DNA of 64,000 nucleotides from the NCBI GenBank assembly GCA_964035015.1, contig OZ036011.1:11164894-11228893 (forward strand), given 5' to 3'. A model generated the notes under the pieces. The model worked only from the letters and a program-made list of their open reading frames with translations. It searched no databases and was not told the origin of the DNA. The position numbers were made by a program, and so were the translations under genes. Positions 23,701 through 63,956 of this stretch are shown here, one piece after another. Numbering within the stretch: the stretch's first letter is position 1; every line of letters starts with the position of its first letter. Source of the stretch: Corallium rubrum (taxonomy: Eukaryota; Cnidaria; Anthozoa; Scleralcyonacea; Coralliidae).

Positions 23701-24106
23701 GAGTAAGAATATTCCAGCTGGGACGGTGGTCGATACACAAGTCTGTCATCCATACGAATTTAATTGGTACCTGTGTAGTCATGCTGGTATCCAAGGCACC
23801 AGTAAACCAGCTCTGTATCATGTTCTGTACGACGACAACAATTTCAAGTCTGATGACCTACAAATCCTGACCAACCAGTTATGTCACACCTACGTACGGT
23901 GTGCAAGAGCAGTGTCCATTCCTGCACCTGCGTACTACGCACATCATGTGGCCTTCCGAGCCCGCTATCATTTAAGTGAAGTTGACAGAGGCAGCAGCGA
24001 TGGCAGTGTGGCGTCTGGTCCTGATGGAGTAAGCCTCGAACCGGAACAGATGATTCGAGCTGTGAAGATACATGAGAACATGAATTCTTCAATGTATTTT
24101 GCATAA
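20720..24106 (+). CDS. AGO: Argonaute protein (AGO clade), intronless copy 2
   Basis: Length 1128 residues, with the same domain order as copy 1: Q/P-rich tail, N, linker 1, PAZ, MID, PIWI. The tail differs in its in-frame 15-bp repeat (PPQQP units, about 20895-21125). The slicer tetrad (GADVTH, HRQEMIAEL, FYRDG, YYAHHV) is intact. Across about 230 PIWI residues I count two differences from copy 1, whereas MID (about 690-850) differs at roughly a third of its positions and lacks the 12-15 residue insertion. The C-terminal tail after GSSDGS also diverges. Both copies look functional. Cnidarians are known to use more than one AGO paralogue, so specialised guide sets are plausible but not shown. 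Confidence 0.96.
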   Translation: MSSDQGPRKGKGRGRNRRSRGRGNQPRQSESVPGGLQQPSGQEREGATALPAAQPLQQPPQQAQTPPQRSQGPQIPPQQPQIPPQQPQVPPQQPPVPPQQPETPPQQPQVPPQQPPVPPQQPQVPPQQPETPPHPQQAQAVSHHEQERIPSAQKKGKSKQQRKKQQKSHIASPKPIDETSAAPSGVQDVKTVPSPTKSDTTPPTTQPITEPSQPTTSTTTAKPSTQQPHPSTTTKPQTPVEQPPPTTTTTSKPQTSPQQQPTAAKPKATAPQPTRTSQPPPRSIKGELRPPRRPDSGGKSGRPIKLRVNFLPVKLPQEDIHHYDAEIKAKGQKMGEGYTCREAPRIIQEIVKQYEKANPSGPKLVYDKNGKNIYCKSPIPGIGKDKREFKVLFTTDNGKEREYTVEVKWVSQVSLYNLNQALEGRLTEIPLDTMQAIEVVLRHLPSMNSIPVGSSFFSYPDGHEKDLGQGLQIWNGTFVSIRPTQWKMMLNVDTCSTAFYKAQPVLHFMCEFLNLRNIPPRLDDKQRRRFDKEMKTIKIETTHLKRRQKVSGLSRNSAKNEFFDCEGKKTSVLEYFKKTYGITLKYPDLPCLKLGQKGSCIPIELCNIVQGQRKQGRLSANQTREMIRYTALPAPQRQQEINKLIHNAKYDQDPYCQDFGIKIGRDMAQITGRVLDPPVINYGPPNRPVKEKPRDGVWNMQQKPMYQPMELKEWAIISYENPQFLNDRGIEFFINKLVEAGKEKKLRIHPSPCYQDTKRGYEGIGHLFGQLHKNYPNLQLIIVIFPGKGSTDEYYEEVKHYGDIIYGIRTQCVKANTATRKAGDMQTMANICLKINAKLGGTTSVLDKGVRSPILQRPVIIFGADVTHPSPRDTTTPSIAAVVASMDSHPNLYNAEVRVQKHRQEMIAELKDMVKILLRKFRNATGAQPEKILFYRDGVSEGQFKDVLIHELQAIQHACLELHQSFKPGITFIVVQKRHHTRFFAEDPRDQRGKSKNIPAGTVVDTQVCHPYEFNWYLCSHAGIQGTSKPALYHVLYDDNNFKSDDLQILTNQLCHTYVRCARAVSIPAPAYYAHHVAFRARYHLSEVDRGSSDGSVASGPDGVSLEPEQMIRAVKIHENMNSSMYFA

Positions 24107-29617: not shown

Positions 29618-32600
29618 GTAGGTTCTTATAGTCCGTTTTCAGCTTGCTTTTGAAATCCGATACGTATAATTTGAATGAACATTCCGAACCACGTTGTAGT
29701 GTTTCAAACTACGTTGCATGGTAGATACAAATTTAAGTCGGCAATTTGTTTCTGCTTAACCAAGTATCTATTATTATATTCTATACAACAAGTAATCTTA
29801 GCTGTGATCCGTGGTCTGAACTGTGTCGTATGCCGGCTGCCTGGAGAGCGCCTTTGATATGCCTCGACACGGCCACGTTCATCTGCATCCTTCGCAATTC
29901 CAGCATATCCTCCTACCTGGAATTACCAATAATCAGTAAGTGCGAAATGCCTAGAATTACCAATAATCGTTAATTTTAAAAACTAATTCCCAACCCCCAC
30001 ACCCCAACCCTAACCCAAACCTCTAAACCTTACCCTAAACCTAACCACAACCCCCCGGCAACCCTAACCCTAACCCACAACCCCCCGGTGGACCTAAACC
30101 TAACCACAACCCTCCGGGAAAAAAGTCCCGCCTCTCAAACCCCGACCACAGCACCCTGGTTTTTTAGTTATATGCAATTTAGTTTAACATCCCGCATGTG
30201 GGACAGAGAATTACCTTACAATTACCAATTATTGGTAATTCAAGGCCGTTTCACACTTACTGATTATTGGTAATTCTAGGTAGGAGGACATGTTGGCAAT
30301 TCAGCCGCTGGCTGCAAGTAAGGATGATTAGCCACCCAATCCTTTATCCTTTATCCTTATCTGTGATTTTACCAAAGGAATTCAATTCAAAGCTTATTAA
30401 ATTGACCTTTTCGGCACTAGAAACACGTGTAGTGACACGTGACCAAAAATGTAAACAAACACCCAAAGTTCGTACAAGCTTAAAGTTCGAACAAACAGTT
30501 CTAATAAGAGTACAACATGGTTGTCACTAAAAGGTACGCTTGGGGTACGTGTAAAAACGATTCGCGTTATCCAGGGCGTATGGTGAACAATTGTAACGCC
30601 GATTTGATTTCGTTTATCCACTTTCCTGGTTCAAAGCGGCGCGGAGAGAAGCGCAAGCGATGGATTGATGCGTGTCGGCGCGGCGATTCTTTCGTTTGTT
30701 CGAAAGATAGTTTCATCTGCAGTCTGCATTTTGTTGACGAAAACGGGCCCACAGTTCGCGACCCCATACCAGCGACAGCAAGTAAATAATTGGTAAGTTT
30801 ATTCATATTGTGATATTTCAGAGGACAAAATTTGCGCGTTTACAAAATGTATCCTTTCGTGATCAGTGTTCGTGATTTGTACCGACACAAAGGTCACTAA
30901 TACTAAGAGGCCTCGTCAGTAAATGACAGACAGAGAAATCTGCAGCAAACGCTTTACTTTTACTTTCGTATCCACTGAGCGGAGCTGGCAAGAGCGAAAA
31001 AGAAATGTCCGTGACACATATCCTTTCTTCGTTTATCGAAAATGCTGGTACAAAGCAACCGTGCGAGACGATTATTTTTAGCGAAAACCAAGATAGTCAA
31101 GATGAAACGCAATCTGGAGAACAACAAGAAAGCAACTCAGGTAGGAATTTTACTCACCAAAAATTATTCCGATTCTGATACAGTCTTATTTACATATGTA
31201 ATGTTGAACTTTTCAGACCTCCCTCGAGCTTTATGATGACTGTATGCTACAGTACAGAGACAATCTTTAGGGAGATAGTTTATAACTCATTCCTGTCCGA
31301 GGGCTTTCCCAGAGGTGAATAAAATCGTCTGGCGTTAGCCAGAATAAAATACCAAAAACCAATTCGGACAGGAAAGAGTTAGGGAGATAGTTTATAACTC
31401 ATTCCTGTCCGAGGGCTTTCCCAGAGGTGAATAAAATCGTCTGGCGTTAGCCAGAATAAAATACCAAAAACCAATTCGGACAGGAAAGAGTTAGGGAGAT
31501 AGTTTATAACTCATTCCTGTCCGAGGGCTTTCCCAGAGGTGAATGAAATCGTCTGGTGTTAGCCAGAATAAAATACCAAAAACCAATTCGGACAGGAAAG
31601 AGTAGCTACATGCAGTAATTATTTCTGGCAAGAGTTGAAGATACAAATAGAACCTCGAATAGAACAATGCATTATACTGGACTACTGGTGCGTATATTTT
31701 GGTCCACCTATTCTAGACTTGTTTATTTTAATGTGCAAAGAAATGAAAGAATGTCTTAAGACAGTTTTTGACTTAATTAAAGATAAAGCAAGTCGAGTCC
31801 ATGCTTGGAAGGGTACAAGAAAAACAAGAGTAGTACCAATTCATAGCAAGTATTTGAAGGTAAAAATATTAAACCTTTCTTATATTAAATTGAGAAAAAT
31901 TACTGATTCTTTTCATGTTACATAATTATTGTGTATTATTTATTTTGCCTTATTAATATAATTTATTAAATCACAAATATTTGTTGATAAAAAACAATTG
32001 GTTTGTTCTCTTAATAGCAAAAATACAGCCTAACCAAACTGAATCCTAGAGAACAATTTATTTTTACATTAATTCGACTCCGAAGAAATACAAGTATTGT
32101 GATGTTATCAGATATTTTTGGAATATCACCTTAGTACTGGTAGTACAATCTTCATCACATGGGTGCTATTTCTGATTAAAGGGATAATGTTTCTTCTGCC
32201 ATTCTCAACAATCAATGATCTGGATGGAATTAAAAAGCCAAAGGAACTTGGAAGTATCGAAAACCTCCAAGCCATTATTGATACAGTTAAAAAAATTAAA
32301 TGTAAATTGTATTTAAAATAAATTAGTAGCAGAAATACATAACATTTGCTGGCCAGGCATACCGATAATTGGATATTACTGTATTAGTTTAATTGATAAT
32401 ATAAATATTACTCAGGTACAAATATATACCTATAGATGAAACTGATTTCAGTTCTGGTAAATTCCATGTCAAAGAGTCCATCACTATTCACTAATATATG
32501 CCTTAAATCGTATTATATGTCAAAGACTGCGTTTCATCTTGGTTTTCACTAAAAATAATCGTCTCGCACGGTTACTTTGTACCACCACTGACATTTCTTC

Positions 32601-38600: not shown

Positions 38601-41600
38601 TTAATCTTAGTTAGTTTCAGAAATTGCAGCTTGATGTTAGTAATAATTGTTAGTTGTTTGCTGTACAAGCTGTGTTAGTTAGTAATACTCAGGAAAACTC
38701 TGAGCTCTAAGCGGGACTCGAACCCACAACCTTCTGAATGCTAGCTACAATCTTGGACAAAAGTAGTTGTAACACTCAGCCCCCTTCCCCCCAATTCAAT
38801 GTTGTCATTTGAAAGCTTGCGCAAAGACTCACGGTGGGACGCAAGAATGTGACAACATTGATTTGGGGGGCTGAGTGTTACAACAGTTTTGTCCAAGATT
38901 GTCTCCGACTGTTTTTTTTTCTATTTACATAAATTAGCGTTAAAACCTGTTTTATATACATAAAATAATGTGAATAAATACACTACAAAGTTTAAGCTAT
39001 TTTCCTTGAGTAGAAAGATCAATAATTTGCATTTAAACACGAATAGAGTCAATGCCGCACGGGTTTTCTTGGCGCAGGCTCCTCTATATTATACTTTCTG
39101 GTCAGCGTTCATCGAGTTTACTCTAATAAACTGACGTCACAATGGAATAGCCGTCTCATTTTTTCAAAAATATATTTGCGCTAGCTGTTTTATCAGAATT
39201 TAAGTTCTGTTTTTGCTTTGTCATGGTTTTTTTGAGACGTCTGTGTCCCAACAAGAGAGCGTATATTTACATGCTTCTCAAAGAAATGAAGATGAGCACA
39301 AGGAGTATCGCTCGGAAATGCGGAGTTTCCAATGCAACTGTTTCAAGAATTGGAAACAATTTCAAGAATCCTGATCGTAAACCTACTCGCCGTTCAGGAA
39401 GACCACAAAAAATTACAAACCGCATGAACAGAAACCTTATTAGAACATTAAAAAACATTCGACATAGTGAAGGGGGCCATTTTTCTTCAAAGAAGATTGC
39501 ACTTGAAGCAGATATACCATCTACAATCAGCAACCGAACGGTGTGACGTGCACTCAACAAAAGTGAATTCCAATGGCTACAAGCAAGGAAGAAGGGTTTG
39601 ATGACTGTAAAAGACCACAGTAAACGCTTGCGATTTGTGCAAATGATAAGAAGAGAGCACCCAGGTGACTTTTTCTGGATGGATGGAATTGCTTTCTATT
39701 TTGATGGTGTTTCATTTATTCACAAAACTCGGCCTGCTGACCAAGCCCTAGCCCCTCGAGGTCGCATTTGGAGAAAGCGTTGCGAAGGACTTGATTATGC
39801 CTGTACCGCAAAGGGTTCGACGTGTCTAAGTGGTGGCCGTTGGGTAAAAGTCTTTGTCGCTATATCATTTGCAAGAGGAGTGATACTCGCAAAACCATAC
39901 CAACATCTTGACGGACCAATGTTTGCCGACTTCGTTACGGACAACTTTGCAGCAACATTTATTCGCTCGGGCAAAGAAACGAATGTGTTCTTGCAAGATG
40001 GAGACCCAAGTCAGAACAGTGGACATGCAAAAGCTGTATTTACTGAACTAGGATATACATGTTTTAAAATACCGCCGCGGTCACCAGACATTAATCCTAT
40101 TGAAAATCTTTTTCATTTAGTCAAAAATAAACTTAATACTGACGTATACACAATAATTAATATAATCTGCACTATCTACCAACGGTCTACCACGGTCTAC
40201 CACGGTCTACCACTAGTTTATAACAAATTAATATGTATTCAGTTTTCTATTAAATATTTGGTAGACCGTGGTAGATCGTTGTATATAGGGAATAATTCCG
40301 ATGATTTGAATGTAATTTAAACGCTTTATTTCGTCAGTACTTTTATCACTTTTTGAGATTGCTTCAACCTAACATTGGTAGTATTACCAGCTTTTTTATT
40401 TTCGTTATTTAACGTGAGGCATCCCTACTATGACTTTTGACTACATTTACCTTTAATAGCATTGTGAATATTTTAAGCCCCGATACAATCTCACCCTTCC
40501 CCAAGAGTGCAATAACAAGTCATCCGTAGTATTAACAAGGAGGTAGTCTTTTGTGTAAAATCTATATCTTATCAAATTAATTACACCGAATTGATTCTAC
40601 CAATTACCAGTTTACATATTGAAATATACAGACAAAAGTGATTACCATTTTTCTATATAAATTCAAATCATTGTGGTTAAACTGGACAGTTAATTGAGAG
40701 AACGTCAAAGATGGAGTTTCTTTCGCAATACCAATCGTCGTGTGAAGAAGAAGAAGAAGAAGAAGAAGAAGAAGAAGAAGAAGAAGAAGAAGAAGAAGAA
40801 GAAGAAGAAGAAGAAGAAGAAGAAGAAGAAGAAGAAGAAGAAGAAGAAGAAGAAGAAGAAGAAGAAGAAGAAGAAGAAGAAGAAGAAGAAGAAGAAGAAG
40901 AAGAAGAAGAAGAAGAAGAAGAAGAAGAAGAAGAAGAAGAAGAAGAAGAAGAAGAAGAAGAAGAAGAAGAAGAAGAAGAAGAAGAAGAAGAAGAAGAAGA
41001 AGAAGAAGAAGAAGAAGAAGAAGAAGAAGAAGAAGAAGAAGAAGAAGAAGAAGAAGAAGAAGAAGAAGAAGAAGAAGAAGAAGAAGAAGAAGAAGAAGAA
41101 GAAGAAGAAGAAGAAGAAGAAGAAGAAGAAGAAGAAGAAGAAGAAGAAGAAGAAGAAGAAGAAGAAGAAGAAGAAGAAGAAGAAGAAGAAGAAGAAGAAG
41201 AAGAAGAAGAAGAAGAAGAAGAAGAAGAAGAAGAAGAAGAAGAAGAAGAAGAAGAAGAAGAAGAAGAAGAAGAAGAAGAAGAAGAAGAAGAAGAAGAAGA
41301 AGAAGAAGAAGAAGAAGAAGAAGAAGAAGAAGAAGAAGAAGAAGAAGAAGAAGAAGAAGAAGAAGAAGAAGAAGAAGAAGAAGAAGAAGAAGAAGAAGAA
41401 GAAGAAGAAGAAGAAGAAGAAGAAGAAGAAGAAGAAGAAGAAGAAGAAGAAGAAGAAGAAGAAGAAGAAGAAGAAGAAGAAGAAGAAGAAGAAGAAGAAG
41501 AAGAAGAAGAAGAAGAAGAAGAAGAAGAAGAAGAAGAAGAAGAAGAAGAAGAAGAAGAAGAAGAAGAAGAAGAAGAAGAAGAAGAAGAAGAATTGTCATT

Positions 41601-44600: not shown

Positions 44601-47600
44601 TTTAGAAAATAAAGAAGTTGGTATGAAGATTGTACTATACTATACTGTACCATACCATACCACACCGTACCGTACCGTACCGTACCGTACCGTACCGTAC
44701 CGTACCGTACCGTACCATACCATACCATACCATACCATACCATATACTAATCCATATTATTCCATACTTATCCATACTATATCATACTGTACAATACTGT
44801 ACCATAACATATTGTACCACAAGGTACCATACCACACCTTACCAATGAATACCATACTATACCATACTATACCATGCTACACTGTACCGTACCATAACAT
44901 ATTGTACCACAAGGTACTCTACCACACCTTACCAATGAATACCATACTATACCATACTATGCCATACTATACCATACTATACCATACTATACCATGCTAC
45001 ACTGTACCGTACCATAACATATTGTACCACAAGGTACTATACCACACCTTACCAATGAATGCCATACTATACCATACCATACCATACTATACCATGCTAC
45101 ACTGTACCGTACCATAACATATTGTACCACAAGGTACTATACCACACCTTACCAATGAATGCCATACTATACCATACTATACCATACTATACCGTACTAT
45201 ACCATGCTACACTGTACCGTACCATAACATATTGTACCACAAGGTACTATACCACACCTTACCAATGAATGCCATACTGTACCATACTATACCGTACTAT
45301 ACCGTACTATACCATGCTACACTGTACCGTACCATAACATATTGTACCACAAAGTACCATACCACACCTTACCAATGAATACCATACTATACCGTACTAT
45401 ACCATACTATACCGTACTATACCGTACTATACCGTACTATACCTACTATACCGTACTATACCATGCTACACTGTACCGTACCATAACATATTGTACCACA
45501 AGGTACTCTACCACACCTTACCAATGAATACCATACTCAGGGGCCGCGGAAGCACCTTGAAAGTGGGGGGGCACTGACCAAAAAGGGCACTTGAGTTTTG
45601 CACCTTACTACTGTATCTTAGTGTAATATAGATATATATTCTTTTATGAATCATGATCAAGTCACAAAGTCAGCAAAGTATTGGTGGACATTCTTCGGAT
45701 GCTATGCGTATTCTCTATTGCTCTGCATGCGTACTAAGTCTTAACAAACTGAAGATGATTAGATGAACAATTTTATTAAGTAATGCGATTTTATTAAAAT
45801 TTGCCAAAAAATCTAACCCTACGTTCGTTTTTCAGAACAAAGTCTTTAGCAATCAAACTTAAGTCCAGTTCATCAGTTCTGGCCTTGTTTACATGCATAA
45901 CAATAAGGTTGTTGTAGCGTGCTGCCGTCATCGTGCTCCTTAGATACGTTTTGACAAGACGCTGGCTTGAAAAGATCGTTCTCCAGAGGCTGCGCTCGCT
46001 CATTGGAGCAAGAAGGTAAATCTGCAAAAGTCGGACAACGTTAGACATTGCCATGACGATCTGCGATGAGTCAGTTTCTTCTGTTGAGAATATTGATGTA
46101 ATGGTGTCAATTGATGTCACCGTCTTAACTTCTGGAAGTCGCTGCGAGATAATTCCTTCAAGAAGCTTTAACTCTGCCTTTAGCTGATCAAAATCGAGGT
46201 CATCTTCGTAAAGGCGTTTCACTGCATCATTTAACTCAAACGTACGCCCATTTGCCGCATTAATGAGCACGGTTTCGATGTTCATCAATACAGAATATAT
46301 TTCTTGATCGAAACGTTCCTGTAGTGCAGCCATGCACGCGTCAATTGCCTCAACACATTGGGCACGGTGGAATTCTTTCGCGGATTGGAAATGATGTTGC
46401 TCACCATCTCCGTGCTGAAATCGCCGCGGAACTTGCTTCGGTCTTAACAGTTTAGGATCGTCTACAAAGTTGATGGCCTTGCTCGAAGTGACTACTTGGT
46501 CGTAAAACAAATGGAAGTCGTCTCGTTGACGTTGCAAGTTTGTCTTCAAGGAATTGACGCAAGTAACAGTTGTTTGTGCCGTTATTGAAGGCTTCTGTAA
46601 CGTAGATGCAACTTGTTCACACACGCTTAAGATATTCTGTGCAAAACTTAAACCAAAGTACGTGGAAAACTTCTTCAATTGGCTAGCCATACCTGATGCG
46701 GTGTCACGTACGGTAGACTTGGAAGATTCTTTGGCTATGCTAAGTAATGTGGAGTACAGGGCCTCGTAATTGTGCAAGACAGCCGAGATGGCTTTGGTTC
46801 TTACCGTCCGCCGAGTTGGACACAGCAAATGCGGATTCTCAACTTGCGTGCCGTTGTCGTTAATCTCTTTGGCGATATGCTGGTATTGCGCCATTCGTGT
46901 TGGTGAAGATCGAATAAACACGGCCAAGTCTTGCACGACCTTTAACGTATCGCTGATAATTTCGCTTTCCTTCACACAATCATGCAAAGCCAAATCAAGA
47001 CTGTGGTTACCGCAGTGAATGTACAGGGCGCGGGGATTCTCTGAAGATATTCGGGCTGCAACTCCACTTCTGCTTCCAGCCATATTTGCTGCGCCATCAT
47101 ATGTTTGCCACCGACAGTCGTCTATCGTCAAATTGCATCGCAACAAAATGTCCTTCAGCGAAGTGGTGATTGTTTCAGCATCGGTTTTCTCTAGCTCGTA
47201 CATACCGAGGAAATCTTCGTGGACGGATAAGTCGGTTGTAGATACCCAGCGTAAAACACATGTTAATTGTTCCTTGTTGCTTATGTCTCTAGACTCATCT
47301 GCAATAAGACTAAATAATTGTGATTCCTTGCGTAGGTCTGCAACTATAGACCTCAGGACTGCGTTGCCCATCATGTTAATCAACTCGTTTATAATGTCAT
47401 GACTGAGATATCTTCCGTTGTCAATCCACTCCAATAATCCAGGGACATCCTCTGCTCTTAATTTTAGCAGCTGGTGTAAGTTACTCTCAATGTCAGTTTT
47501 TCCTTGCAAGCTCTGGGCCTGGCGTGCCAAATACCTAATGCTACTAAGTTGTTTTAACAACATTCGTCTTCGAGTTTCCTGGGTTTTTTAAATTCACCGA

Positions 47601-56600: not shown

Positions 56601-59600
56601 AGTCAGTCGTCGCATTCCCAAAGTGTGCCGAAATGGTTGGGAGATGAAATAAATGGTGAGCTGTACACTAGTCTACGTAGCTTCCGTAACGGGCGTTCAT
56701 TTGGGGTAAAGTTAGTGTAAATTACGGAGCGAGAAGAAAAAACTGTGACGTGAGAGAGGCTAAAGGAACACCACTTAAAATGCTTTTCAAAGTTATGACT
56801 TTCCCCATCAAAATTATTGGCTAAATGTTTCATTGGTTTATTCGAATCTTTATGAAAATAATCTATCAACTTCGTCAAGCATAACAATAGAGTCTGATCC
56901 AGCTTGCATTACCGGCGTTACAGGGGGGTGAAGGTCTCGGCTACTTCTTTCCCCAAGCGAGTTTACTGCTGTGATAATTCCTGATACATGTACTTACTTG
57001 CTTGCTAGAGTACCATTGTCTTTTTTGGTTTATTTTTAAGTTGATAAGAAAGACTCAGAAACTGACGAACTCAGCTTGTTGGATCAACCTAAAACTAGAT
57101 CCAGGCCATCAAGTGGCCGACGGAGCAGCCGACGTCAGACGCCAGAATGTTCAAGCAGAAGAACTACCCCTAGACCAGAAAGTGGGAGGCGATCTGGAAA
57201 CACCGCTGATCAGCACTTAGAAGATCTGGAGCTACATGAACAACTTACGAAACTCTGGTATGGCCTAACCTAGCCTCAATTTGCCTTCCCATATTCATGA
57301 ATTTCTATTTAACTTTACGACATTTAATAACACAATATGTATCAGTGTACGTTGGCGCTAATGGTCTTCGCACTTAAACCTTAATCCTAACACTAATTCT
57401 AACTCTAATCCTAACTCTAATTTTAACTTTACTTCTAATTCTAATCCTAACTCTAAGCCTTATTCTAACTCTAATTCTAACACTAATTCTAACTCCAATT
57501 CTAATTCTAACACTAATTCTAATTCTAATTCTAATCTTAACTCTAGTTCTAATGTTAACTCTAATCCTTATTCTAACTTTAACTCTAACTTTAATTCTAA
57601 TCTTAACTCTAATCTTTATTTTAACTTTAACTCTAACTCTAATTCTAATCTTAATTCTAGTCCTTATCCTAACTCTAATTCTAATCTTAACATTATCCTA
57701 ACCAACAATGCTGCACAAAAGTCCTTAGACGCTATGCGAAAATCGTCAAAAATGGAAAAGTGTCTCAACAATTTTGTCCACGATTAAATCCTGGACAAAA
57801 GTCCTTGAGACACTATGCGAAAATCGCAAAAAACGGCAAAGTGTCTCAACAATTTTGTCCGTGATTGTATGTTTAAAGTTCGAAAGTGCATTAGCACTGT
57901 GCACGTTTAACTTGGTAACAGTTTCGTAGGTTGTGTGTGTAATTATTCTCATGTGTTGGTTACAGTGTTGGTAATCTACCCACGGAAGACAATATGGTGG
58001 ACCAAGAAAGATTGTTAGAAGAATCACTCAATTCGCTGTCCCAGTTCGGAAGATGTCATCTTGGAAGAATTACTCCGTCAAATGACATGGACCGTCAAGG
58101 TAAGTGACACTGGTACTATGATCAGTATCACTACCATGAGTACCACCACCACCACCACTACCACTATCAGACCTGAGTACCACCATTACTACCACCACCA
58201 CTATCATTACCACCACCACTACTACCACCACCTCCACCACTACTACTACCACTACTAGTCTACCACCACTACTAGTCTATCACCACCACCACTACCACCA
58301 CCACCACCACCACCACCACCACCACTATCACCACCACTACCACCACCACCACCACCACTACACCACCACCACTACCACCACCACCACTACCACCACCACT
58401 ACCACCACCACCACCACTACCACCACCACTACCACCACTACCACCACCACTTCCACCACCACTACCACCACCACTACCACCACCACTACCACCACCACCA
58501 CCACCACCACTACACCACCACCACTACCACCACCACTACCACCACCAATGGCCTACCACCACCAATGGCATACCACCACCAATGGCCTACCACCACCACC
58601 GCTACTACCACCACTACTACCACCACCACAAGTAGACTACCACCCCCACCACTACTGCCATTACTACCACTACGGGACTACCACCACTGCCACCACTATT
58701 ACTATTACCGTCACCATTGTCAGAACCATCACTATTACAGGATGGTGGGATAACTTTCTTGTGTGAGTAAATGTTTCAATATTCTACTGTTTCTCTTCTC
58801 AGGAGATGCGCTGGATGATTTACTTACACCAAGATCAAGTGAACAAGAAACTGAAAACGCAAAGTAATACATTATTTTAGTCAAGAACTACAGTTCTGTG
58901 GTGGTAGTTTAACACTGGCGTGTTTATTTGTGAATTGTGTTTCCACTTTCAGTTCAACAAATGAGTTTGTTATTCCTGAGCTTCCGTGTGGTCAACGTCT
59001 TGTCGTCAACATTCTTTCTACGTGGGGAGATCAATATTATGTTGGATTAAATGGAATTGAGATTTTTAACAGCTCTGGAAAACCTGTACAGATCTCCAAA
59101 GTACTATACTGTATATTTATTTATTTTTTTCTTCACTTCACTTCACTCCACTTCACTTCACTTCACTTCACTTCACTTCACTTCACTTCACTTTACTTCA
59201 CTTCACTTCACTTCACTTCACTTCACTTCACTTCACTTCACTCCACTCCACTTCACTTCACTTCACTTCACTTCACTTTTCTCCACTTCACTTCACTTTT
59301 CTCCACTTCACTTCACTTCATTTCACTTCACTTCACTTCACTTCACTTCACTTCACTTCACTTCACTTCACTTCACTTCACTTCACTTCACTTCACTTCA
59401 CTTCACTTCACTTCACTTCACTTCACTTCACTTCACTTCACTTCACTCCACTCCACTTCACTTCACTTCACTTCACTTCACTTCACTTCACTTCACTTCA
59501 CTTCACTTCACTTCACTTCACTTCACTTCACTTCACGTCACGTCACGTCACGTCACGTCACTTCACTTCACGTCACTTCACTTCACTTCAGTTCACTTCA

Positions 59601-62600
59601 CTTCACTTCACTTCACTTCACTTCACTTCACTTCACTTCACTTCACTTCACTTCACTTCACTTCGCTTCGCTTCGCTTCGCTTCACTTCGCTTCACTTCG
59701 CTTCACTTCGCTTCGCTTCGCTTCACTTCGCTTCACTTCACTTCACTTCCCTCCACGCCACGCCACGCCACGCCACGCCACGCCACGCCACGCCACGCCA
59801 CACCACGCCACCCCACCCCACTTCACTTCACTTCACTTCACTTCACTTCACTTCACTTCACTTCACTTCACTTCACTTCACTTCACTTCACTTCACTTCA
59901 CGTCACTTCACTTCACTTCACTTCACTTCACTTCACTTCACTTCACTTCACGTCACGTCACTTCACTTCACTTCACTTCACTTCACTTCACTTCACTTCA
60001 CTTCACTTCACTTCACTTCACTTCACTTCACTTCACTTTACTTTACTTCACTTCACTTCACGTCACTTCACTTAATTCACTTCTCTAATCTTGTTGTTGC
60101 TTTGTTATATATATATAGATTACAGCGGATCCTCCTGATATCAATATTCTTCCTGAGTACAGCAAAGATCCTAGAGTGGCGTCTAACCTTATTGACGGAG
60201 TCTATTGTACAAGGTGTGTGGTATAGATCACATCTGGCTATATAGGACTATACATTGCAGGAGTATTTTCGGGTTTAGGCTTTTTAGGGAGACACGGGTG
60301 TCTTAAGTTAACTCCCTTCCTCTCACCTTAGCTTCGTGTGACTAGAGTTTAAAAAAGTAGAGTGCTGTGTAGGCAGTGTTTTGGATAGAGCAAAGTGAAA
60401 AGATGGTAAACTGCTAAGAATAGTTTTGATAATGAAATACTGACGTTTCAAGCAGAGTCCTTCATCAGAGTAAAAAGTAGAGTGTTGTGTAGGCAGTGTT
60501 TTGGATAGAGCAAAGTGAAAAGATGGTAAACTGCTAAGACTAGTTTTGATAATGAAATACTGACGTTTCAAGCAGAGTCCTTCATCAGAGTAAAAAGTAG
60601 AGTGTTGTGTAGGCAGTGTTTTGGATAGAGCAAAGTGAAAAGATGGTAAACTGCTAAGATTAGTTTTGATAATGAAATACTGACGTTTCAAGCAGAGTCC
60701 TTCATCAGAGTAAAAACTAGAGTGTTGTGTAGGCAGTGTTTTAGATAGAGCAAAGTGAAAAAATCGTAAACTGCCAAGAATAGTTTTGATAATGAAATAC
60801 TGACGTTTCAAGCAGAGTCCTTCATCAGAGTAAAAAGTAGAGTGTTGTGTAGGCAGTGTTTTAGATAGAGCAAAGTGAAAAAATCGTAAACTGCCAAGAA
60901 TAGTTTTGATAATGAAATACTGACGTTTCAAGCAGAGTCCTTCATCAGAGTAAAAAGTAGAGTGTTGTGTAGGCAGTGTTTTAGATAGAGCAAAGTGAAA
61001 AGATGGTAAACTGCTGAGATTAGTTTTGATAACGAAATACTGACGTTTCAAGCAGAGTCCTTCATCAGAGTAAAAAGTAGAGTGTTGTGTAGGCAGTGTT
61101 TTGGATAGAGCAAAGTGAAAAGATGGTAAACTGCTGAGATTAGTTTTGATAACGAAATACTGACGTTTCAAGCAGAGTCCTTCATCAGAGTAAAAACTAG
61201 AGTGCTGTGTAGGCAGTGTTTTAGATAGAGCAAAGTGAAAAAATCGTGAACTGCCAAGAATAGTTTTGGTAATGAAATACTGACGTTTCAAGCAGAGTCC
61301 TTCATCAGAGTAAAAAGTAGAGTGTTGTGTAGGCAGTGTTTTGGATAGAGCAAAGTGAAAAGATGGTAAACTGCTGAGATTAGTTTTGATAACGAAATAC
61401 TGACGTTTCAAGCAGAGTCCTTCATCAGAGTAAAAACTAGAGTGCTGTGTAGGCAGTGTTTTAGATAGAGCAAAGTGAAAAAATCGTAAACTGCCAAGAA
61501 TAGTTTTGATAATGAAATACTGACGTTTCAAGCAGAGTCCTTCATCAGAGTAAAAAAGTAGAGTTTGTGTAGGCAGTATTTTGGATAGAGCAAAGTGAAA
61601 AGATGGTAAACTGCTGAGAATAGTTTTGACAACGAAATACTGACGTTTCAAGCAGAGTCCTTCATCAGAGTAAAAAGTAGAGTGTTGTGTAGGCAGTGTT
61701 TTGGATAGAGCAAAGTGAAAAGATGGTAAACTGCTGAGATTAGTTTTGATAACGAAATACTGACGTTTCAAGCAGAGTCCTTCATCAGAGTAAAAACTAG
61801 AGTGCTGTGTAGGCAGTGTTTTAGATAGAGCAAAGTGAAAAAATCGTAAACTGCCAAGAATAGTTTTGATAATGAAATACTGACGTTTCAAGCAGAGTCC
61901 TTCATCAGAGTAAAAACTAGAGTGCTGTGTAGGCAGTGTTTTAGATAGAGCAAAGTGAAAAAATCGTAAACTGCCAAGAATAGTTTTGATAATGAAATAC
62001 TGACGTTTCAAGCAGAGTCCTTCATCAGAGTAAAAAGTAGAGTGTTGTGTAGGCAGTGTTTTGGATAGAGCAAAGTGAAAAGATGGTAAACTGCTGAGAT
62101 TAGTTTTGATAACGAAATACTGACGTTTCAAGCAGAGTCCTTCATCAGAGTAAAAACTAGAGTGCTGTGTAGGCAGTGTTTTAGATAGAGCAAAGTGAAA
62201 AAATCGTAAACTGCCAAGAATAGTTTGATAATGAAATACTGACGTTTCAAGCAGAGTCCTTCATCAGAGTAAAAAGTAGAGTGTTGTGTAGGCAGTGTTT
62301 TGGATAGAGCAAAGTGAAAAGATGGTAAACTGCTGAGATTAGTTTTGATAACGAAATACTGACGTTTCAAGCAGAGCCCTTCATCAGAGTAAAAAGTAGA
62401 GTGCTGTGTAGGCAGTGTTTTAGATAGAGCAAAGTGAAAAGATGGTAAACTGCTGAGATTAGTTTTGATAACGAAATACTGACGTTTCAAGCAGAGTCCT
62501 TCATCAGAGTAAAAAGTAGAGTGCTGTGTAGGCAGTGTTTTAGATAGAGCAAAGTGAAAAGATGGTAAACTGCTGAGATTAGTTTTGATAACGAAATACT

Positions 62601-63956
62601 GACGTTTCAAGCAGAGTCCTTCATCAGAGTAAAAAGTAGAGTGCTGTGTAGGCAGTGTTTTAGATAGAGCAAAGTGAAAAGATGGTAAACTGCTGAGATT
62701 AGTTTTGATAACGAAATACTGACGTTTTGAGAAGAGCCCTTCATCAGAGTAAAATTTGGGCCCAGCTCAAAACGTCAGTATTTCATTATCAAAATTAACC
62801 TCGGCAGTTCTGTACCGTTTCACTTCGCTTTATGAGTGGAGTTGTTGGCTTGGAAATTTTACAGTTTACCGTACCCGAGTGATCCAGCGATTCATGTGCC
62901 ACCAAACGAGATTATTTTGATGACCTAACCCAAAAAAAAACTAACCCTAATCAATAACTGTGTTTACCGCTTATTTTATACGCTTACCGACCCACTAACT
63001 TGACACAGTGATGTGACTTGGGTACGGTAAAGTGTAAACTACCCGTTGGCTCCCCTGTGCTCTAAAGGTTTTTTCACTGAGTTCTCTGGTTCTCCTCCCA
63101 GTCTGCTAGCGCTGATTTAGCTTGAGTTTTCCGTTGCTGGATTGTACTGCATGATTTTTTTTTGACTTTTTATTTTGCATTTCTATCAGAGATGACATGC
63201 ACTTGTGGATGGCGCCATTTACACCAGGACAAACTAATTTTATTTATGTCGACTTCAAAGATACTTCAACGCTTGCGATGGTTCGGATATGGGTATGATT
63301 TGGGATGTTTTAAATAAACATAATTTATCAATATGATTATCGTTATAAGTTATATAACAATTTATCAGACGTAGTTTAACCCTACACTGGCTTGAACAGT
63401 TGAACATTTTTGAATAGTATTTTTTTTAAAGTAAGCAGCAGTGTTTTATCAGATTTAAAACACGAGGCGATACCTGAGTGTTTTAGATTTGATAAAACAC
63501 GTACTGCGAATGTTTTAAATGGCTTCAAAAACGACCCATTTGGTAAGTTCATTGGCGTTGTAAGTTTGAAAAATAACGTCTTAGCCGAGAAAATCAAAGC
63601 TAAAGTTTATGTAAATCAGGAGGTTTCTTTATCAGATATAAAACCACGGATATGGTACTGATTTCCGTTGTGTTTTCCTCGTGAATTAGTAATGAGTTTT
63701 TGAAGCTACGTTTAAAATTTTTCATCTAGTTGTGTCTTTTATTTTACGAGAACAATTTATTTTACGACATGTTTCAGGCAATCAGTTTTTGCTGGGTTGG
63801 ACAAAATCTTAGTGTTGCTAACTGTTCACTAATAAGATTAAGTACAAAATATTTTTTTTAGAACTACAATAAATCAAGGATTCATTCATTTCGCGGAGCT
63901 AAAGACATCGAAATTTTTCTTGACGATAATTTGATATTTCGTGGGGAAATGGCGAG
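25259..63956 (+). CDS. KATNIP: Katanin-interacting protein (KIAA0556), 34 exons, 3' end outside window
   Basis: This microtubule- and katanin-associated protein sits at the ciliary base; its human counterpart is a Joubert syndrome gene. It is recognised from [18 protein letters not shown] and [14 protein letters not shown] near the N-terminus and from DUF4457-type segments farther on. All 34 exons join in phase, 3344 nt (about 1115 codons); human KATNIP has about 1618 residues, so about 500 lie beyond the edge. The first coding exon is tiny (25259-25265, ATG GAA A) and was chosen because only it fits the phase of exon 2 (27455-27519). Introns reach 6.9 kb (44621-51503) and are full of transposons and satellites. 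The exon blocks are listed separately. The last exon ends at 63956 with a GTCAGT donor. Confidence 0.92.
25359..25445. repeat. (TA)n microsatellite
   Basis: About 43 TA units lie in KATNIP intron 1. A second (TA)n run sits at 26083-26146 and a short one at 26156-26175. Between them, 25640-26030 looks like a SINE-type repeat (possible pol III box TTAGCGTGGTGGTAGCC), with low certainty. Confidence 0.95.
26576..27333. mobile_element. hAT-like non-autonomous element in KATNIP intron 1
   Basis: The ends CAGAGCTTGAAATAA and TTATTTCAGGCTCTG are inverted repeats. The word TGGGTTAT occurs at both borders (26568-26575, 27332-27339), consistent with an 8-bp duplication overlapping the right end by two bases. 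The interior repeats CCGACCAAATTT-like words. A degenerate hammerhead-like block sits near 26905-26945. Confidence 0.6.
27747..28876. repeat. Imperfect ATGATCA/ATGATG repeat array in KATNIP intron 3
   Basis: About 1.1 kb consists only of GATGAT, GATCAATGAT, GATTATGATCAATAATGAT and close variants, with higher-order blocks (27780-28050 resembles 28210-28460). Confidence 0.95.
29910..30295. repeat. MITE with telomere-like core
   Basis: TCCTACCTGGAATTACCAAT and ATTGGTAATTCTAGGTAGGA are inverted ends. The interior (about 29985-30115) is degenerate CCCTAA-type sequence (AACCCTAACCCAAACC, AACCCTAACCCTAACCC). Confidence 0.6.
30517..30789 (+). CDS. THAP zinc-finger domain ORF of the transposon
   Basis: The 90-residue frame starts [15 protein letters not shown] and contains the C2CH pattern (the Cys of GTCKND, a later CSLH pair) with [19 protein letters not shown] between. 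It ends with the DPIPA motif typical of THAP domains. THAP domains bind transposon ends. It stops right after the domain, so it is either a first exon or an isolated remnant. Confidence 0.75.
   Translation: MVVTKRYAWGTCKNDSRYPGRMVNNCNADLISFIHFPGSKRRGEKRKRWIDACRRGDSFVCSKDSFICSLHFVDENGPTVRDPIPATASK
31268..31606. repeat. Three tandem copies of a 112-bp hairpin unit
   Basis: Each unit starts GGGAGATAGTTTATAACTC, carries CATTCCTGTCCGA at one end and TCGGACAGGAAAGAG at the other, and has an inner hairpin (TCTGGCGTTAGCCAGA). Units start at about 31270, 31382 and 31494 and are nearly identical. Confidence 0.85.
31635..32321 (+). pseudogene. Decayed transposase (helix-turn-helix part)
   Basis: Pieces in different frames read [20 protein letters not shown], then [21 protein letters not shown] and ENLQAIID. 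They resemble the Tnp helix-turn-helix that precedes DDE_Tnp_4 domains in THAP transposons. The DDE domain itself is absent. The resemblance was judged by eye. Confidence 0.5.
32841..33112 (-). pseudogene. Inverted second copy of the THAP ORF, frameshifted
   Basis: It is nearly identical to the THAP ORF at 30517-30789, but one A is missing shortly after the ATG (33110-33112), so the original start is out of frame. The frame resumes at [12 protein letters not shown]. Confidence 0.75.
33560..33850. repeat. Fold-back element in KATNIP intron 7
   Basis: GTGTTTTACCAGGGGTTGCA at about 33608 is inverted at about 33793-33812 (GTAACCCCTGGTAAAACAC). The interior repeats ACTCGAGAACAA and CCTCGTGATTTTCAT words. 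Confidence 0.6.
33899..44620 (+). CDS. KATNIP: KATNIP exons 8-15 (acidic central region)
   Basis: Exons: 33899-33957, 34380-34469, 35165-35227, 37307-37622, 38326-38359, 38475-38558, 42887-42972, 44501-44620. The protein is acidic and low in conservation ([30 protein letters not shown]), then [10 protein letters not shown] and RPLSATR...[15 protein letters not shown]. The donor after 37622 (phase 1) and the 34-nt exon 38326-38359 are inferred from phase continuity. Simple read-through from 37622 would end at a TGA near 37691. Confidence 0.7.
34115..34275. repeat. Solo diverged copy of the 120-bp hammerhead repeat family
   Basis: AGAATAGTTTTGATAACGAA and, inverted, AGAGTGTTGCGTAGTCAGTG are the same words as in the 60356-62755 array. 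The hammerhead core is degenerate here (the CTGATGA box is lost, GAAAC is kept). Confidence 0.6.
34622..34987. repeat. Minisatellite of ten 36-bp units with YY1-like and CRE-like sites
   Basis: Each unit contains GCCGCCATCTTG (reverse complement CAAGATGGCGGC, a YY1 core; ATATTG in the first unit), followed by TTGATGACGTCACCTCATGG or a close variant. Four units have the full CRE palindrome TGACGTCA; the others have TGACGTAA or TTACGTCA. It lies in KATNIP intron 9. Confidence 0.9.
35570..36840. repeat. Tandem segmental duplication of about 470 bp, first copy interrupted by a transposon
   Basis: Copy 1 (35570-36365) and copy 2 (36366-36840) share long stretches (CTCCAGACGAGACTCG, TTTGCCGCTTCACT, GTGTCTATAAGCTTCAAACA). 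Both contain a tRNA-like SINE head (GAGTTCCAGT, TCAATGGTTAGAGCG). Copy 1 is split by the element at 35849-36173. The short conserved exon at 35165-35227 precedes it. Confidence 0.75.
35849..36173. mobile_element. Deletion derivative of the THAP transposon
   Basis: The ends TTTCAGCTTGCTTTTGAAAT and ATTTCAAAAGCAAGCTGAAA match the element at 29638-33345. Copy 2 of the surrounding duplication shows the empty site (CCATTTAAAGGTCG), so the insertion duplicated AAAG (35845-35848 and 36174-36177). Confidence 0.75.
36890..37205 (+). repeat. tRNA-derived SINE split by a MITE
   Basis: The pol III A box (TCTCAATGGTGAGAGCG) and B box (GGGTTCGAGTCCCG) are separated by a 207-bp element at 36954-37160 with ends AGCCTGGTACCCTGGC/GCCAGGGTACCAGGCT. 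The flanks ACTCGGAAGAT and ACTCAGAAGGT look like its target duplication. Without the insert the tRNA-like head would be normal length. I do not think it is a functional tRNA. Confidence 0.7.
37700..38215. repeat. (GGAA)n-(GGGA)n-(GGTA)n-(GGAA)n-(GGGA)n composite microsatellite
   Basis: Symmetric blocks flank a (GGTA)n core at about 37929-38083. The tract fills most of the intron between 37622 and 38326. On the minus strand the same tract reads as (CCTT)/(CCCT). Confidence 0.95.
38605..38746 (-). repeat. tRNA-derived SINE tail, interrupted by a MITE
   Basis: On the minus strand it carries the B box (GGGTTCGAGTCCCGCTTAGA) followed by a tail with GTTAGTAATACTCAGG-type words. The same tail occurs in the SINE at 42593-42840. 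Confidence 0.6.
38747..38902. mobile_element. 156-bp MITE, copy 1
   Basis: The ends ACAATCTTGGACAAAAGTAG and TTTTGTCCAAGATTGT are inverted repeats that extend about 37 bp (TGTAACACTCAGCCCCC and its inverse). It is nearly identical to the copy at 42436-42592, so transposition was recent. Confidence 0.85.
39223..40150 (+). pseudogene. Tc1/mariner-like transposase with one internal stop and a lost C-terminus
   Basis: The N-terminus has paired helix-turn-helix sequence ([20 protein letters not shown], then [20 protein letters not shown]). The catalytic half has [23 protein letters not shown] and [15 protein letters not shown], giving DDE spacing with 34 residues between the second Asp and the Glu. 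One in-frame TGA at 39544-39546 interrupts it (the frame continues unchanged after it). The reading frame runs into unrelated fold-back sequence (CTACCAACGGTCTACC and inverse, 40165-40285) after KNKLNTD. It lies in KATNIP intron 13. Confidence 0.85.
40744..41592 (+). repeat. (GAA)n triplet tract, about 283 uninterrupted units
   Basis: The tract is 849 bp of GAA without a visible interruption, in KATNIP intron 13. In reading frames it would encode poly-Glu, poly-Lys or poly-Arg (poly-Ser or poly-Leu on the other strand), none credible as a protein by itself. Long GAA/TTC tracts form triplex and R-loop structures. Confidence 0.98.
41593..42061 (+). pseudogene. SF3-helicase-like C-terminal fragment fused to the GAA tract
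   Basis: About 155 residues read [20 protein letters not shown] (Walker B-like), then [26 protein letters not shown] (motif C-like) and [12 protein letters not shown]. This is the order of a superfamily 3 helicase of replication initiators. The segment just before, [14 protein letters not shown], looks like a Walker A loop that has lost its Lys. The upstream half is replaced by the GAA tract. Related fragments are scattered in invertebrate genomes, perhaps from ssDNA elements or viruses; the source here is unresolved. AATAAA follows at about 42089. Confidence 0.55.
42436..42592. mobile_element. 157-bp MITE, copy 2
   Basis: This is the second copy of the element at 38747-38902, in the same orientation. 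Both copies abut tRNA-derived SINE sequence at nearly the same point of the SINE, which suggests insertion before SINE spread or a target preference. Confidence 0.85.
42593..42840 (-). repeat. tRNA-derived SINE with nested fold-back
   Basis: The A-box end (minus strand TGGCTCAATGGTTAGAGCGT) lies at about 42593-42620, and B-box-like GGGTTCGAGTCCCGC lies on the plus strand at about 42748. Between them is a hairpin element with arms ACTGTGCCCAGTCCTCCAGG / CTAGAGGACTGGGCACAGT. The tail has ACACAGCTTGTACAGCAAAC. Confidence 0.55.
43030..43200. repeat. MITE in KATNIP intron 14
   Basis: GCTTTGCTTTTGACGGAAAT at the left and ATTCCCGTCAAAAGCAAC at the right are inverted ends, continuing inward with GTTCGAAGTTCATTCCGAA and its inverse. 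Confidence 0.65.
43371..44108. repeat. (ATTCA)n pentanucleotide satellite, two blocks
   Basis: Blocks at 43371-43716 and 43963-44108 consist of ATTCA units with GTTCA variants. The 250 bp between them are unique and contain no recognised gene. Confidence 0.95.
44225..44362. repeat. Fold-back with degenerate hammerhead-like sequence
   Basis: AAATTATTGAACGTTAG and its inverse bracket the segment. Inside, CGAAACGTTAG blocks resemble the 3' half of the hammerhead core, but the CTGATGA box is CTGACAA on the minus strand, so it should be inactive. Confidence 0.5.
44632..45537. repeat. CCATA/CTATA pentanucleotide satellite, left part
   Basis: After (CCGTA)n and (CCATA)n runs, higher-order units of about 105-150 bp appear. 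Each carries the landmark ACATATTGTACCACAAGGTA and CACACCTTACCAATGAAT. The hAT element at 45538 interrupts the array, which continues at 49478. Confidence 0.95.
45794..47563 (-). CDS. hAT transposase, DUF4371/C-terminal part
   Basis: The frame encodes 589 residues starting [20 protein letters not shown]. It has the DUF4371-type core ([56 protein letters not shown]) and a hAT C-terminal dimerisation region ([20 protein letters not shown]). It resembles transposase-derived ZMYM1-like proteins. It overlaps the upstream zinc-finger frame by 10 nt in the -1 frame, so it is separated from the finger by a frameshift or translated by an unusual route. Confidence 0.88.
   Translation of the reverse strand: MLLKQLSSIRYLARQAQSLQGKTDIESNLHQLLKLRAEDVPGLLEWIDNGRYLSHDIINELINMMGNAVLRSIVADLRKESQLFSLIADESRDISNKEQLTCVLRWVSTTDLSVHEDFLGMYELEKTDAETITTSLKDILLRCNLTIDDCRWQTYDGAANMAGSRSGVAARISSENPRALYIHCGNHSLDLALHDCVKESEIISDTLKVVQDLAVFIRSSPTRMAQYQHIAKEINDNGTQVENPHLLCPTRRTVRTKAISAVLHNYEALYSTLLSIAKESSKSTVRDTASGMASQLKKFSTYFGLSFAQNILSVCEQVASTLQKPSITAQTTVTCVNSLKTNLQRQRDDFHLFYDQVVTSSKAINFVDDPKLLRPKQVPRRFQHGDGEQHHFQSAKEFHRAQCVEAIDACMAALQERFDQEIYSVLMNIETVLINAANGRTFELNDAVKRLYEDDLDFDQLKAELKLLEGIISQRLPEVKTVTSIDTITSIFSTEETDSSQIVMAMSNVVRLLQIYLLAPMSERSLWRTIFSSQRLVKTYLRSTMTAARYNNLIVMHVNKARTDELDLSLIAKDFVLKNERRVRFFGKF
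47554..48363 (-). CDS. hAT transposase, N-terminal TTF-type zinc-finger part
   Basis: The 269-residue frame starts [20 protein letters not shown], passes a Ser/Pro/Thr-rich linker, and ends in a TTF-type finger region ([45 protein letters not shown]). It stops at TAA (47554-47556) directly where the DUF4371 frame begins. In related elements both parts belong to one protein. Confidence 0.82.
   Translation of the reverse strand: MPRAARRKREKEKELVETAKRMRKLTSFFSSAPTKDVVEPDIDSGSNSTLPSTTETPPTCLSHHSDSESNFSDPGPGASSDIPVAPPTEPSTPRASDNLASLPSSTTTVPFVGPMPIESTDCSLGLECQRLCCTDRKPYRPTQEEIKRTSTKQTTKGGSSNVRTCPSSIFLKYAWVTYCVTKGTIACYFCKRAMRQDLITFSHNGEKAFLLGEFSDWKKCQEKLKKHSQSKFHAEATEKVLLFDDSRSDIGAKLVGEFKKPRKLEDECC
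49478..51447. repeat. CCATA/CTATA pentanucleotide satellite, right part
   Basis: This continues the array at 44632-45537. Long blocks recur almost verbatim (for example 49660-49860, 50265-50465 and 50640-50840), a higher-order repeat of about 375-600 bp made of pentamers plus the TTACCAATGAAT landmark. It fills KATNIP intron 15. Confidence 0.95.
51504..54354 (+). CDS. KATNIP: KATNIP exons 16-23 (first DUF4457 region)
   Basis: Exons: 51504-51565, 51736-51842, 51919-52072, 52202-52300, 52409-52525, 53704-53847, 54082-54156, 54271-54354. A Ser/Pro linker leads into the first DUF4457-type repeat: [47 protein letters not shown] and [12 protein letters not shown]. The IWNYNK...GAKD pattern recurs in the second copy. 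Confidence 0.9.
52812..53495. mobile_element. TTAA-flanked fold-back element (piggyBac-like MITE)
   Basis: Arms of about 310 bp are inverted copies, beginning TTAAGGTGGATCCATACAGT and ending with the inverse GTGTGGAGCCACCTTAA. TTAA at both borders fits piggyBac-type target use. No transposase. It lies in KATNIP intron 20. Confidence 0.8.
53324..53337. promoter_or_regulatory. RFX X-box inside the TTAA fold-back
   Basis: GTTGCCATAGCAAC matches the X-box consensus exactly. The other arm carries a 13/14 match (GTCGCTATGGCAAC, 52969-52982). Confidence 0.5.
54367..54885. repeat. CCATA/CCACA pentanucleotide satellite
   Basis: AGCATAGCGT units lead into CCATA and CCACA runs. It starts 13 bp after exon 23 and ends about 28 bp before exon 24. 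Confidence 0.95.
54913..58863 (+). CDS. KATNIP: KATNIP exons 24-30 (linker between DUF4457 copies)
   Basis: Exons: 54913-55052, 55157-55228, 56382-56444, 56579-56655, 57041-57257, 57966-58099, 58803-58863. The linker is rich in Ser, Arg and acidic residues ([13 protein letters not shown]), with [10 protein letters not shown] as a recognisable conserved patch and a predicted helix around [14 protein letters not shown]. Confidence 0.85.
55240..56265. mobile_element. MITE swollen by a 28-bp minisatellite
   Basis: The termini CCCGTTTACACGATGCCG and CGGCATTGTGTGAACGGG are inverted repeats. About 23 copies of a GAAACCGTAATGCTAACC, GTAACGATAT/GATTT unit fill 55330-56010. The unit core matches the subterminal TIR words (GTAACGAAAT, ACCGTAATG), so the array grew from transposon end sequence. 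Confidence 0.8.
57375..57866. repeat. Hexanucleotide (CTAACT/CTAATT)n array plus 72-bp duplication
   Basis: 57375-57705 is built of TCTAAT, TCTAAC and CCTAAC hexamers, a telomere-like but non-canonical pattern. It is followed by two tandem copies of a unit with ACAAAAGTCCTTAGAC, ATGCGAAAATCG and GTGTCTCAACAATTTTGTCC (57715-57866). Confidence 0.85.
58125..58740. repeat. (ACC)n-type repeat
   Basis: CCACCACTA, CCACCACCA and TACCACCAC units run through KATNIP intron 29. Confidence 0.95.
58953..63956 (+). CDS. KATNIP: KATNIP exons 31-34 (second DUF4457 region, incomplete)
   Basis: Exons: 58953-59100, 60119-60213, 63190-63292, 63862-63956. They encode [50 protein letters not shown], then [20 protein letters not shown] and [15 protein letters not shown]. 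The introns hold the CTTCA satellite and the hammerhead array. The domain continues past the window. Confidence 0.92.
59129..60078. repeat. (CTTCA)n pentanucleotide satellite with block variants
   Basis: CTTCA units with blocks of CTCCA, CGTCA, CTTCG, CGCCA and CCCCA. The variant set matches the satellite at 4660-5395. It fills KATNIP intron 31, with the next acceptor only about 40 bp after its end. Confidence 0.95.
60356..62755 (-). repeat. 20-copy tandem array of a 120-bp hammerhead ribozyme repeat (retrozyme-like)
   Basis: Units repeat with 120-bp period (occasional 1-bp indels). Constant words include AGAGTGTTGTGTAGGCAGTG, GATAGAGCAAAGTGAAAA and TAGTTTTGATAATGAAATAC. Two sequence variants alternate (GATGGTAAACTGCTGAGAT and ATCGTAAACTGCCAAGAA). 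On the minus strand nearly every unit has a type I hammerhead layout. The array ends with a diverged inverted half-unit (62757-62840). It sits in KATNIP intron 32, antisense to the gene. Because 120 is a multiple of 3 the minus strand stays open for 602 codons, which I take as a by-product. Confidence 0.92.
60661..60720 (-). ncRNA. Representative hammerhead ribozyme of the 120-bp array
   Basis: On the minus strand: outer helix I TAGTTTT, inner helix I TACT, CTGATGA, short helix II region (AGGACTCTGCTT), GAAA, CGTC, inner helix I AGTA, an internal loop, and outer helix I AAAACTA. A-CG-T forms a palindromic two-pair helix III and cleavage would follow GTC. The other units have the same core about every 120 bp. 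The last unit (near 62725) has lost the G of GAAA. Confidence 0.8.
63408..63530. repeat. Small fold-back in the last KATNIP intron
   Basis: GTGTTTTATCAGATTTAAAA and its near-inverse TTTTAGATTTGATAAAACAC form a hairpin. The remaining intron sequence (62841-63189 and 63531-63861) shows nothing I can name. Confidence 0.5.

Follow-up and report, generated by a model that had tools for sequence, protein, structure and literature searches.

Among the systems described so far, those closest to the locus analyzed here are the minimal type I hammerheads of Penelope-like elements (PLEs) and Terminons (Cervera and de la Pena 2014; Lunse et al. 2017, as cited in PMC7761336, PMC6466107 and PMC6155905). 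The minimal motifs of PLEs are said to act possibly as dimers, by means of palindromes and tandem copies (PMC6466107, PMC7761336), and the minimal motifs published are mostly dispersed, with some lying inside the pLTRs of PLEs, and are given as numerous and with no known role (PMC7761336). The coral Acropora millepora has been reported to carry more than 6,000 type I motifs, of which 1,508 are canonical and the others minimal-like (PMC7229834), so that minimal motifs in the thousands are already known. Canonical hammerheads in the tandem repeats of animals make circular RNAs (PMC7229834), and a start of reverse transcription inside the RNA has been described for a PLE (PMC11167929). One hammerhead of a PLE showed activity only together with its protein (PMC11167929). 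We found no description of a 120-bp satellite built of minimal motifs in the literature searched, as far as the accessible portions of those papers go.

The array that we report shares with the minimal hammerheads of PLEs and Terminons the core, the absence of a looped helix III, a palindrome that permits dimers, the tandem copies and, provided that the window motif takes the register of the T-type sister motifs and of the PLE in this genome, a single base separating A9 from helix II; it differs from them in being a 120-bp satellite-like unit with an eroded helix II and no adjoining PLE gene. With the metazoan non-LTR retrozymes, as PMC7229834 presents them, it has in common a type I hammerhead within short, dispersed tandem repeats of low GC content (36.7% in the repeat of the array) in an animal genome, but its monomer of 120 bp falls below the 150-450 bp reported for animal type I repeats, which speaks against the retrozyme-like nature claimed in the original prediction, and its hammerhead is of the minimal rather than the canonical kind and is Rfam-negative. 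The satellite hammerheads of newt and axolotl likewise belong to satellite DNA, and their short helix III functions better in dimers (PMC6155905, PMC7229834), but they have units of about 330-350 bp, a canonical hammerhead and proven cleavage.

The window, by which we mean the whole stretch of 64,000 nucleotides of Corallium rubrum DNA that was analyzed, contains 20.0 head-to-tail copies of the unit with 95% matches (Table 1), and these make up most of an intron of a KATNIP gene. The translated exons of this gene match the Pfam family DUF4457 (E 1.8e-31), which we take to be the KATNIP/KIAA0556 domain, and, the gene being on the plus strand and the motifs of the array on the minus strand, the latter are antisense to KATNIP. 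Both the tandem array of about 20 units of 120 bp and its location in the intron of a ciliary gene, antisense to KATNIP, had been proposed in the original prediction and were borne out, the second by the GT/AG borders, the reading frame and the DUF4457 match, while the inverted partial unit beside the array and the dispersal of the unit family throughout the genome are additions to it. A mir-5880-like hairpin at 62696-62801, with 40 bits against a gathering score of 97, is explained by this inverted partial unit. Because the length of the unit, 120 bp, is divisible by three, a single stop-free frame (one of the six frames of the consensus unit) opens the entire array, and a minus-strand frame of 645 aa with a 40-residue repeat (60323-62260) runs through it; an ORF of 212 aa in the array matched five Pfam families, none of them with a stretch that passed alone, and we treat the apparent coding capacity as a by-product of the stop-free frame. 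An array of about 190 copies of the pentamer CTTCA (59131-60083) ends just 5' of the KATNIP exon that begins at 60126.

Table 1. Positions in the window of the tandem array, its cores and the surrounding KATNIP gene
Feature	Position	Strand	Basis or remark
Tandem array, 20 units x 120 bp	60352..62754	- (hammerhead strand)	Tandem Repeats Finder and unit alignment
Intron holding the array, 2,976 bp	60214..63189	+	GT/AG borders, reading frame
KATNIP (DUF4457) exon upstream of the array	60126..60213	+	
KATNIP (DUF4457) exon downstream of the array	63190..63298	+	3' border approximate
Earlier KATNIP exon	58942..59097	+	Borders approximate
Partial unit in inverse orientation, facing the array head to head	~62758..62833	+	76 nt aligned with the unit at 77.6% identity
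Core of the 3'-most unit on the ribozyme strand	60442..60468	-	First of the 19 intact cores
Core with helix II GGGC/GCUU instead of GGAC/GCUU	62361..62387	-	Sole intact core of this kind
Core of the 5'-most intact unit on the ribozyme strand	62601..62627	-	Last of the 19 intact cores
Twentieth core, 5'-terminal	62721..62747	-	Degenerate, GAAA changed to AAAA (G12 lost)

The motif CTGATGA-12 nt-GAAACGTC recurs on the minus strand in 19 of the 20 units at a spacing of 119-120 nt, and an intact CUGANGA...GAAA...UH core is thereby present in 19 units (hammerhead positions such as C3, A9 and G12 follow the usual numbering). All 19 cores are flanked by TACT and AGTA, enough for a helix I of at least 3-4 bp, and all 19 units have the palindrome ACGU where a looped helix III would otherwise be, the copies standing in tandem; cut down to a palindrome, helix III can form only from two copies together. 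The cores CTGATGA, GAAA and CGTC that had been predicted on the minus strand of the units are hence confirmed in 19 of 20 units, and a type I core with a palindromic helix III of the PLE kind, in tandem, is supported; as for the complementary flanks, the prediction holds for TACT/AGTA, but it was generous in assigning TAGTTTT/AAAACTA to many units, as TAGTTTT upstream goes together with AAAACTA downstream in six of the 19. The core accompanied by a helix I of 3 bp or more was found 19 times in the array, not once in the remaining window and not once in 10 Mb of first-order Markov sequence, and this clustering is not due to chance. By its core, helix I, palindrome and tandem layout, the motif is built like a PLE-type minimal hammerhead.

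Helix II reads GGAC/GCUU in 18 of the 19 intact window cores, a stem in which A.C is mismatched and two of the pairs are G.U, and a shifted register gives a stem of 3 bp (A-U, G.U and G-C); the form with the A.C mismatch accounts for 51 of 124 distinct units of the family. When the T-type sister motifs were considered (34 distinct strings, the full set from the 100 places listed), 146 of 170 helix II cells (85.9%) were paired with one extra base after A9 and 45 of 170 without it, and all five pairs were present in 22 of the 34 distinct strings among the matches listed. In 19 of these strings, which were picked by hand so that the figures from them flatter helix II, 96.8% of the cells were paired, changes had occurred on both sides at four of the five pairs, and the covariation was 0.716, with slid registers giving no more than 0.208 and none of 500 shuffles equalling it. 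Among 73 distinct relaxed-core strings, mostly A-type and unpicked, 31 reached 3 pairs and 23 reached 4 in the best register. The T-type motifs have the extra base between A9 and helix II, as do the intact PLE at locus L089 that is described below and some A-type motifs, among them L009 and L088; L042, L043 and L053 do not fit this register, and L053 is without helix II. The A-type motif of the window itself appears to form a poorer helix II than its T-type sisters. The plus-strand hammerhead of CChMVd has a looped helix III. It is like the motifs considered here in carrying an unpaired extra base after A9 (PMC3705267), and unlike the window in belonging to a viroid.

The covariance search with the Rfam hammerhead model that the original prediction had named as a check found no match in the array: at the gathering cut-off no family matched, Hammerhead_1 (RF00163) included, anywhere in the window, and at E <= 10 the four matches between 60200 and 63000 included no hammerhead. 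The motif of PLE L089 was, though, missed at E <= 10 too, and 13 loci with minimal motifs gave tRNA matches alone at the gathering cut-off. Since it misses the L089 motif, the Rfam test is blind to the minimal class, and we dropped it as the deciding test; Rfam scans can thus overlook this class, even a copy in an intact PLE. A model built solely from T-type motifs ranked the 19 window units 1 to 19 in the window (14.7-14.9 bits, E ~0.05; next window match E 0.47) and displayed no more than two helix II pairs in any of them. This model gave the L089 motif just 11.1 bits, no better than chance matches in that search, so that its score serves as a ranking and is no proof, and it lends modest support to the putative hammerhead kinship of the window units. 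In the 474-Mb genome, the relaxed core pattern occurred 2,922 times versus 6 for the reversed control pattern, and the T-type sister pattern 730 times versus 3 for its control. Helix I gave 92 pairs in 35 distinct flank sets, from loci taken from the best matches; 2,000 shuffles averaged 75.3 and never reached that number. Covariation demonstrates the predicted helices of the hammerhead in relatives of the window motif, and the kinship of the array motif with hammerheads, as read from these comparisons, is well supported. A scan of viral contigs for relatives gave 0 matches.

An intact PLE with RVT_1 (reverse transcriptase) and GIY-YIG domains lies at L089 (C49:7326500-7330300), where it is arranged in tandem with a period of 2,710 bp. 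The motif CTGAAGA-T-GGCA/TGCC-GAA-ACATGT-T stands at the 5' edge of its open frame of 830 aa (932-963, overlapping the first in-frame ATG at 959) and is repeated one period later (3642); its palindrome is ACAUGU, as against ACGU in the window. Judged by sequence, the window motif resembles that of this intact PLE. The relative at L089 sits in a PLE with reverse transcriptase and GIY-YIG, and the array does not: a tblastn search of the window with the L089 PLE protein, as one query, gave a best E of 0.61, and no GIY-YIG match to the window was among the 143 obtained (150 of 1,845 candidates scored). A parent PLE with exactly this unit was not found either, two of 30 GIY-YIG loci (about 3.2 kb each) holding the CTGATGA minimal motif.

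Examination of the whole genome revealed a unit family made of many short arrays, with the many head-to-tail copies at many loci that are proper to a satellite (1,042 tandem 120-bp junctions versus 0 for the control pattern) and with 497 exact copies of the commonest window core; the loci examined are picks from the best matches and lean towards window-like copies. In 20 loci, counting the window and leaving out L025 because it duplicates L024, the 3' ends on the ribozyme strand fell at phase 83-94 in 13 loci (P ~5e-7 after allowing for placement), this common phase being absent in the remaining seven, and the common end is a T-run just before ACTCTGATGA, about 30 nt ahead of the cleavage site. 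The predicted cut site being phase 0, the ends of the arrays are not ribozyme ends; an end at the T-run some 30 nt before the cleavage site is what one would expect from reverse transcription that begins within the RNA, and in this respect the ends of the arrays resemble the internal start reported for a PLE (PMC11167929). A head-to-head partial unit stands at the start of 10 of 21 loci, and T-type neighbours no more than 6 kb apart are head to head in 23 of 26 pairs versus 6.4 expected (100 listed places, contig C1), which is the layout seen at the window array. The head-to-head partial unit, the preferred 3' end and the spread of the family through the genome are direct observations; no target-site duplication was demonstrated for the 120-bp family. 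Five loci (L010, L017, L018, L021 and L022) share the head-to-head junction CTTCATCA-spacer-TGATGAAG with 0-2 mismatches, and the 10-nt spacer of this junction is found either way round (CATTTTACTC-like or GAGTAAAATG-like), as though a palindrome at the end had been turned over. The family is crowded into megabase regions of certain contigs (C20, C22, C25, C46 and C52) and is near-absent from C1, the subtypes differing in their preference (C25 as opposed to C46 and C52); pericentromeres, low recombination or assembly effects are possible reasons for such crowding.

Taking these results together, the array is probably, though by no means certainly, one locus of a dispersed, PLE-derived 120-bp satellite with weak or relic ribozymes. 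The family may have been seeded by PLE-type retrotransposition, and its longest arrays, that of the window included, would have been enlarged later through local DNA-level exchange. In an antisense transcript, a double hammerhead could arise from two adjacent units, with ACGU/ACGU pairing as helix III and TACT/AGTA as helix I, and would cut after GUC; with a helix II of just 3 pairs or a mismatched stem, slow or no cleavage is to be expected, and the putative ribozyme of the window would be weak at best. The sense pre-mRNA of KATNIP contains only the complement of the cores and should stay untouched. Consistent with local growth, 16 of the 19 window units and 10 of the 12 units of L019 have their nearest relative in their own array, and these two arrays do appear to have grown in place. 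We class the array neither as a PLE nor as a retrozyme, the latter because neither the unit size nor the canonical fold agrees: there is no looped helix III and no Rfam match.

Whether the hammerhead core has any role at the RNA level is the point on which the first rival differs, as it could be a mere passenger in plain satellite DNA, inherited from a PLE-derived founding unit. The conservation of the core agrees with this. The core is intact in 81 and altered in 29 of 110 distinct full-length units, which come from 20 other loci chosen among the best matches, and its 14 positions are roughly as variable as the remaining ones (mean 0.0215 versus 0.0348, MWU P = 0.50; P = 0.34 with the window units added), as in neutral sequence. 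In the window alone, the 43-nt core stretch contains one of 15 variable columns (P = 0.012; the test omits seven columns altered by a single slipped unit). Selection on the core, suggested in the window, is therefore not borne out genome-wide, and core mutations spread evenly as in neutral DNA, which the original prediction had named as evidence against a ribozyme, present a mixed picture: the core is spared within the window and shows no excess conservation in the 110 units. The distribution of the family also favours plain satellite DNA, for the amplified form is regionally clustered, with one of its 497 exact cores on contig C1 (>95 Mb) and all its matches on C25 within 3.87-9.15 Mb of 15.3 Mb, and the form with intact helix II, which is also present in some arrays, is more widely spread (57 matches, C1 share 6/57 versus 1/497, Fisher P = 6e-6); a further subtype of helix II is concentrated on C46 and C52, which have 22 and 48, respectively, of the 100 places listed out of 133. 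Likewise, the 5'-terminal units are somewhat more divergent between loci than the internal ones (9.3% versus 6.5%; 17 loci, L010 and L028 left out). On the other side, an element-like insertion is implied by the phase that the 3' ends share and by the partial unit lying head to head, and we regard an origin as plain satellite DNA as doubtful.

A working retrozyme-like element, in which antisense self-cleavage would yield 120-nt monomers and these in turn circles, PLE reverse transcription and new arrays, is an unlikely alternative in view of the state of the ribozyme. In its favour, every one of the 19 intact tandem cores has the ACGU palindrome and the TACT/AGTA helix I, the dispersed arrays have preferred ends, a PLE reverse transcriptase is encoded in the genome, and canonical hammerheads coexist there (at least 40 places over the Rfam cut-off among the 47 matches listed, 74 of 61,716 candidates scored); moreover, metazoan tandem type I hammerheads are known to yield circles (PMC7229834). 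Against this, the working retrozyme giving 120-nt circles put forward in the original prediction is not supported, as helix II is damaged in 18 of the 19 cores and the core shows no preferential conservation in the 110 units. The double-hammerhead fold, when forced, lies 15.6-18.2 kcal/mol above the minimum free energy in six dimers, these energies ignoring tertiary contacts and the junction core. Copying from one circle should also give near-identical units, but distances are 5.3% within loci and 6.5% between loci, nearly the same, so that most of these arrays do not seem to derive from a single monomer circle, and rolling-circle copying of a single monomer is disfavoured.

A further scheme is a 120-nt self-processing satellite derived from a helix-III-less hammerhead of a PLE, the antisense transcripts of which would be cut between neighbouring units into circles smaller than those reported in animals, perhaps needing a PLE protein, with the family having taken over regions of chromosomes; we hold this to be distinctly unlikely. 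It is very improbable that there is no ribozyme at all and that CTGATG/CGTCAG is a DNA or RNA hairpin of accidental hammerhead likeness, because although RNAfold prefers the CUGAUG/CGUCAG stem in the isolated window motif, L089, L009, L036, L037 and L088 keep the core while their flanks change with compensation, the hairpin being broken and helix I kept, and helix II covaries in the T-type sisters, which disfavours the hairpin for the wider family.

A satellite made up of minimal-type motifs, with better-paired relatives in the same genome, would offer a test of whether the tandem layout alone activates such motifs, and would also allow one to ask if the growth of the satellite accompanied the loss of helix II.

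Other features of the window were observed outside the array. Two long and similar Argonaute-like frames, both stop-free, stand head to head at 16776-20192 (minus strand, 1138 aa) and 20717-24106 (plus strand, 1129 aa), and a Pfam scan of the first frame only identified Piwi, PAZ and ArgoN. Transposon-like ORFs matching Pfam families are located at 39547-40320 (plus strand, DDE_3 endonuclease) and 45794-47587 (minus strand, DUF4371). A perfect (GAA)n tract of 283 copies with 100% matches extends over 40744-41592, and three 112-bp units with 99% matches occupy 31267-31603, each with the near-complementary arms TTCCTGTCCGA and TCGGACAGGAA.
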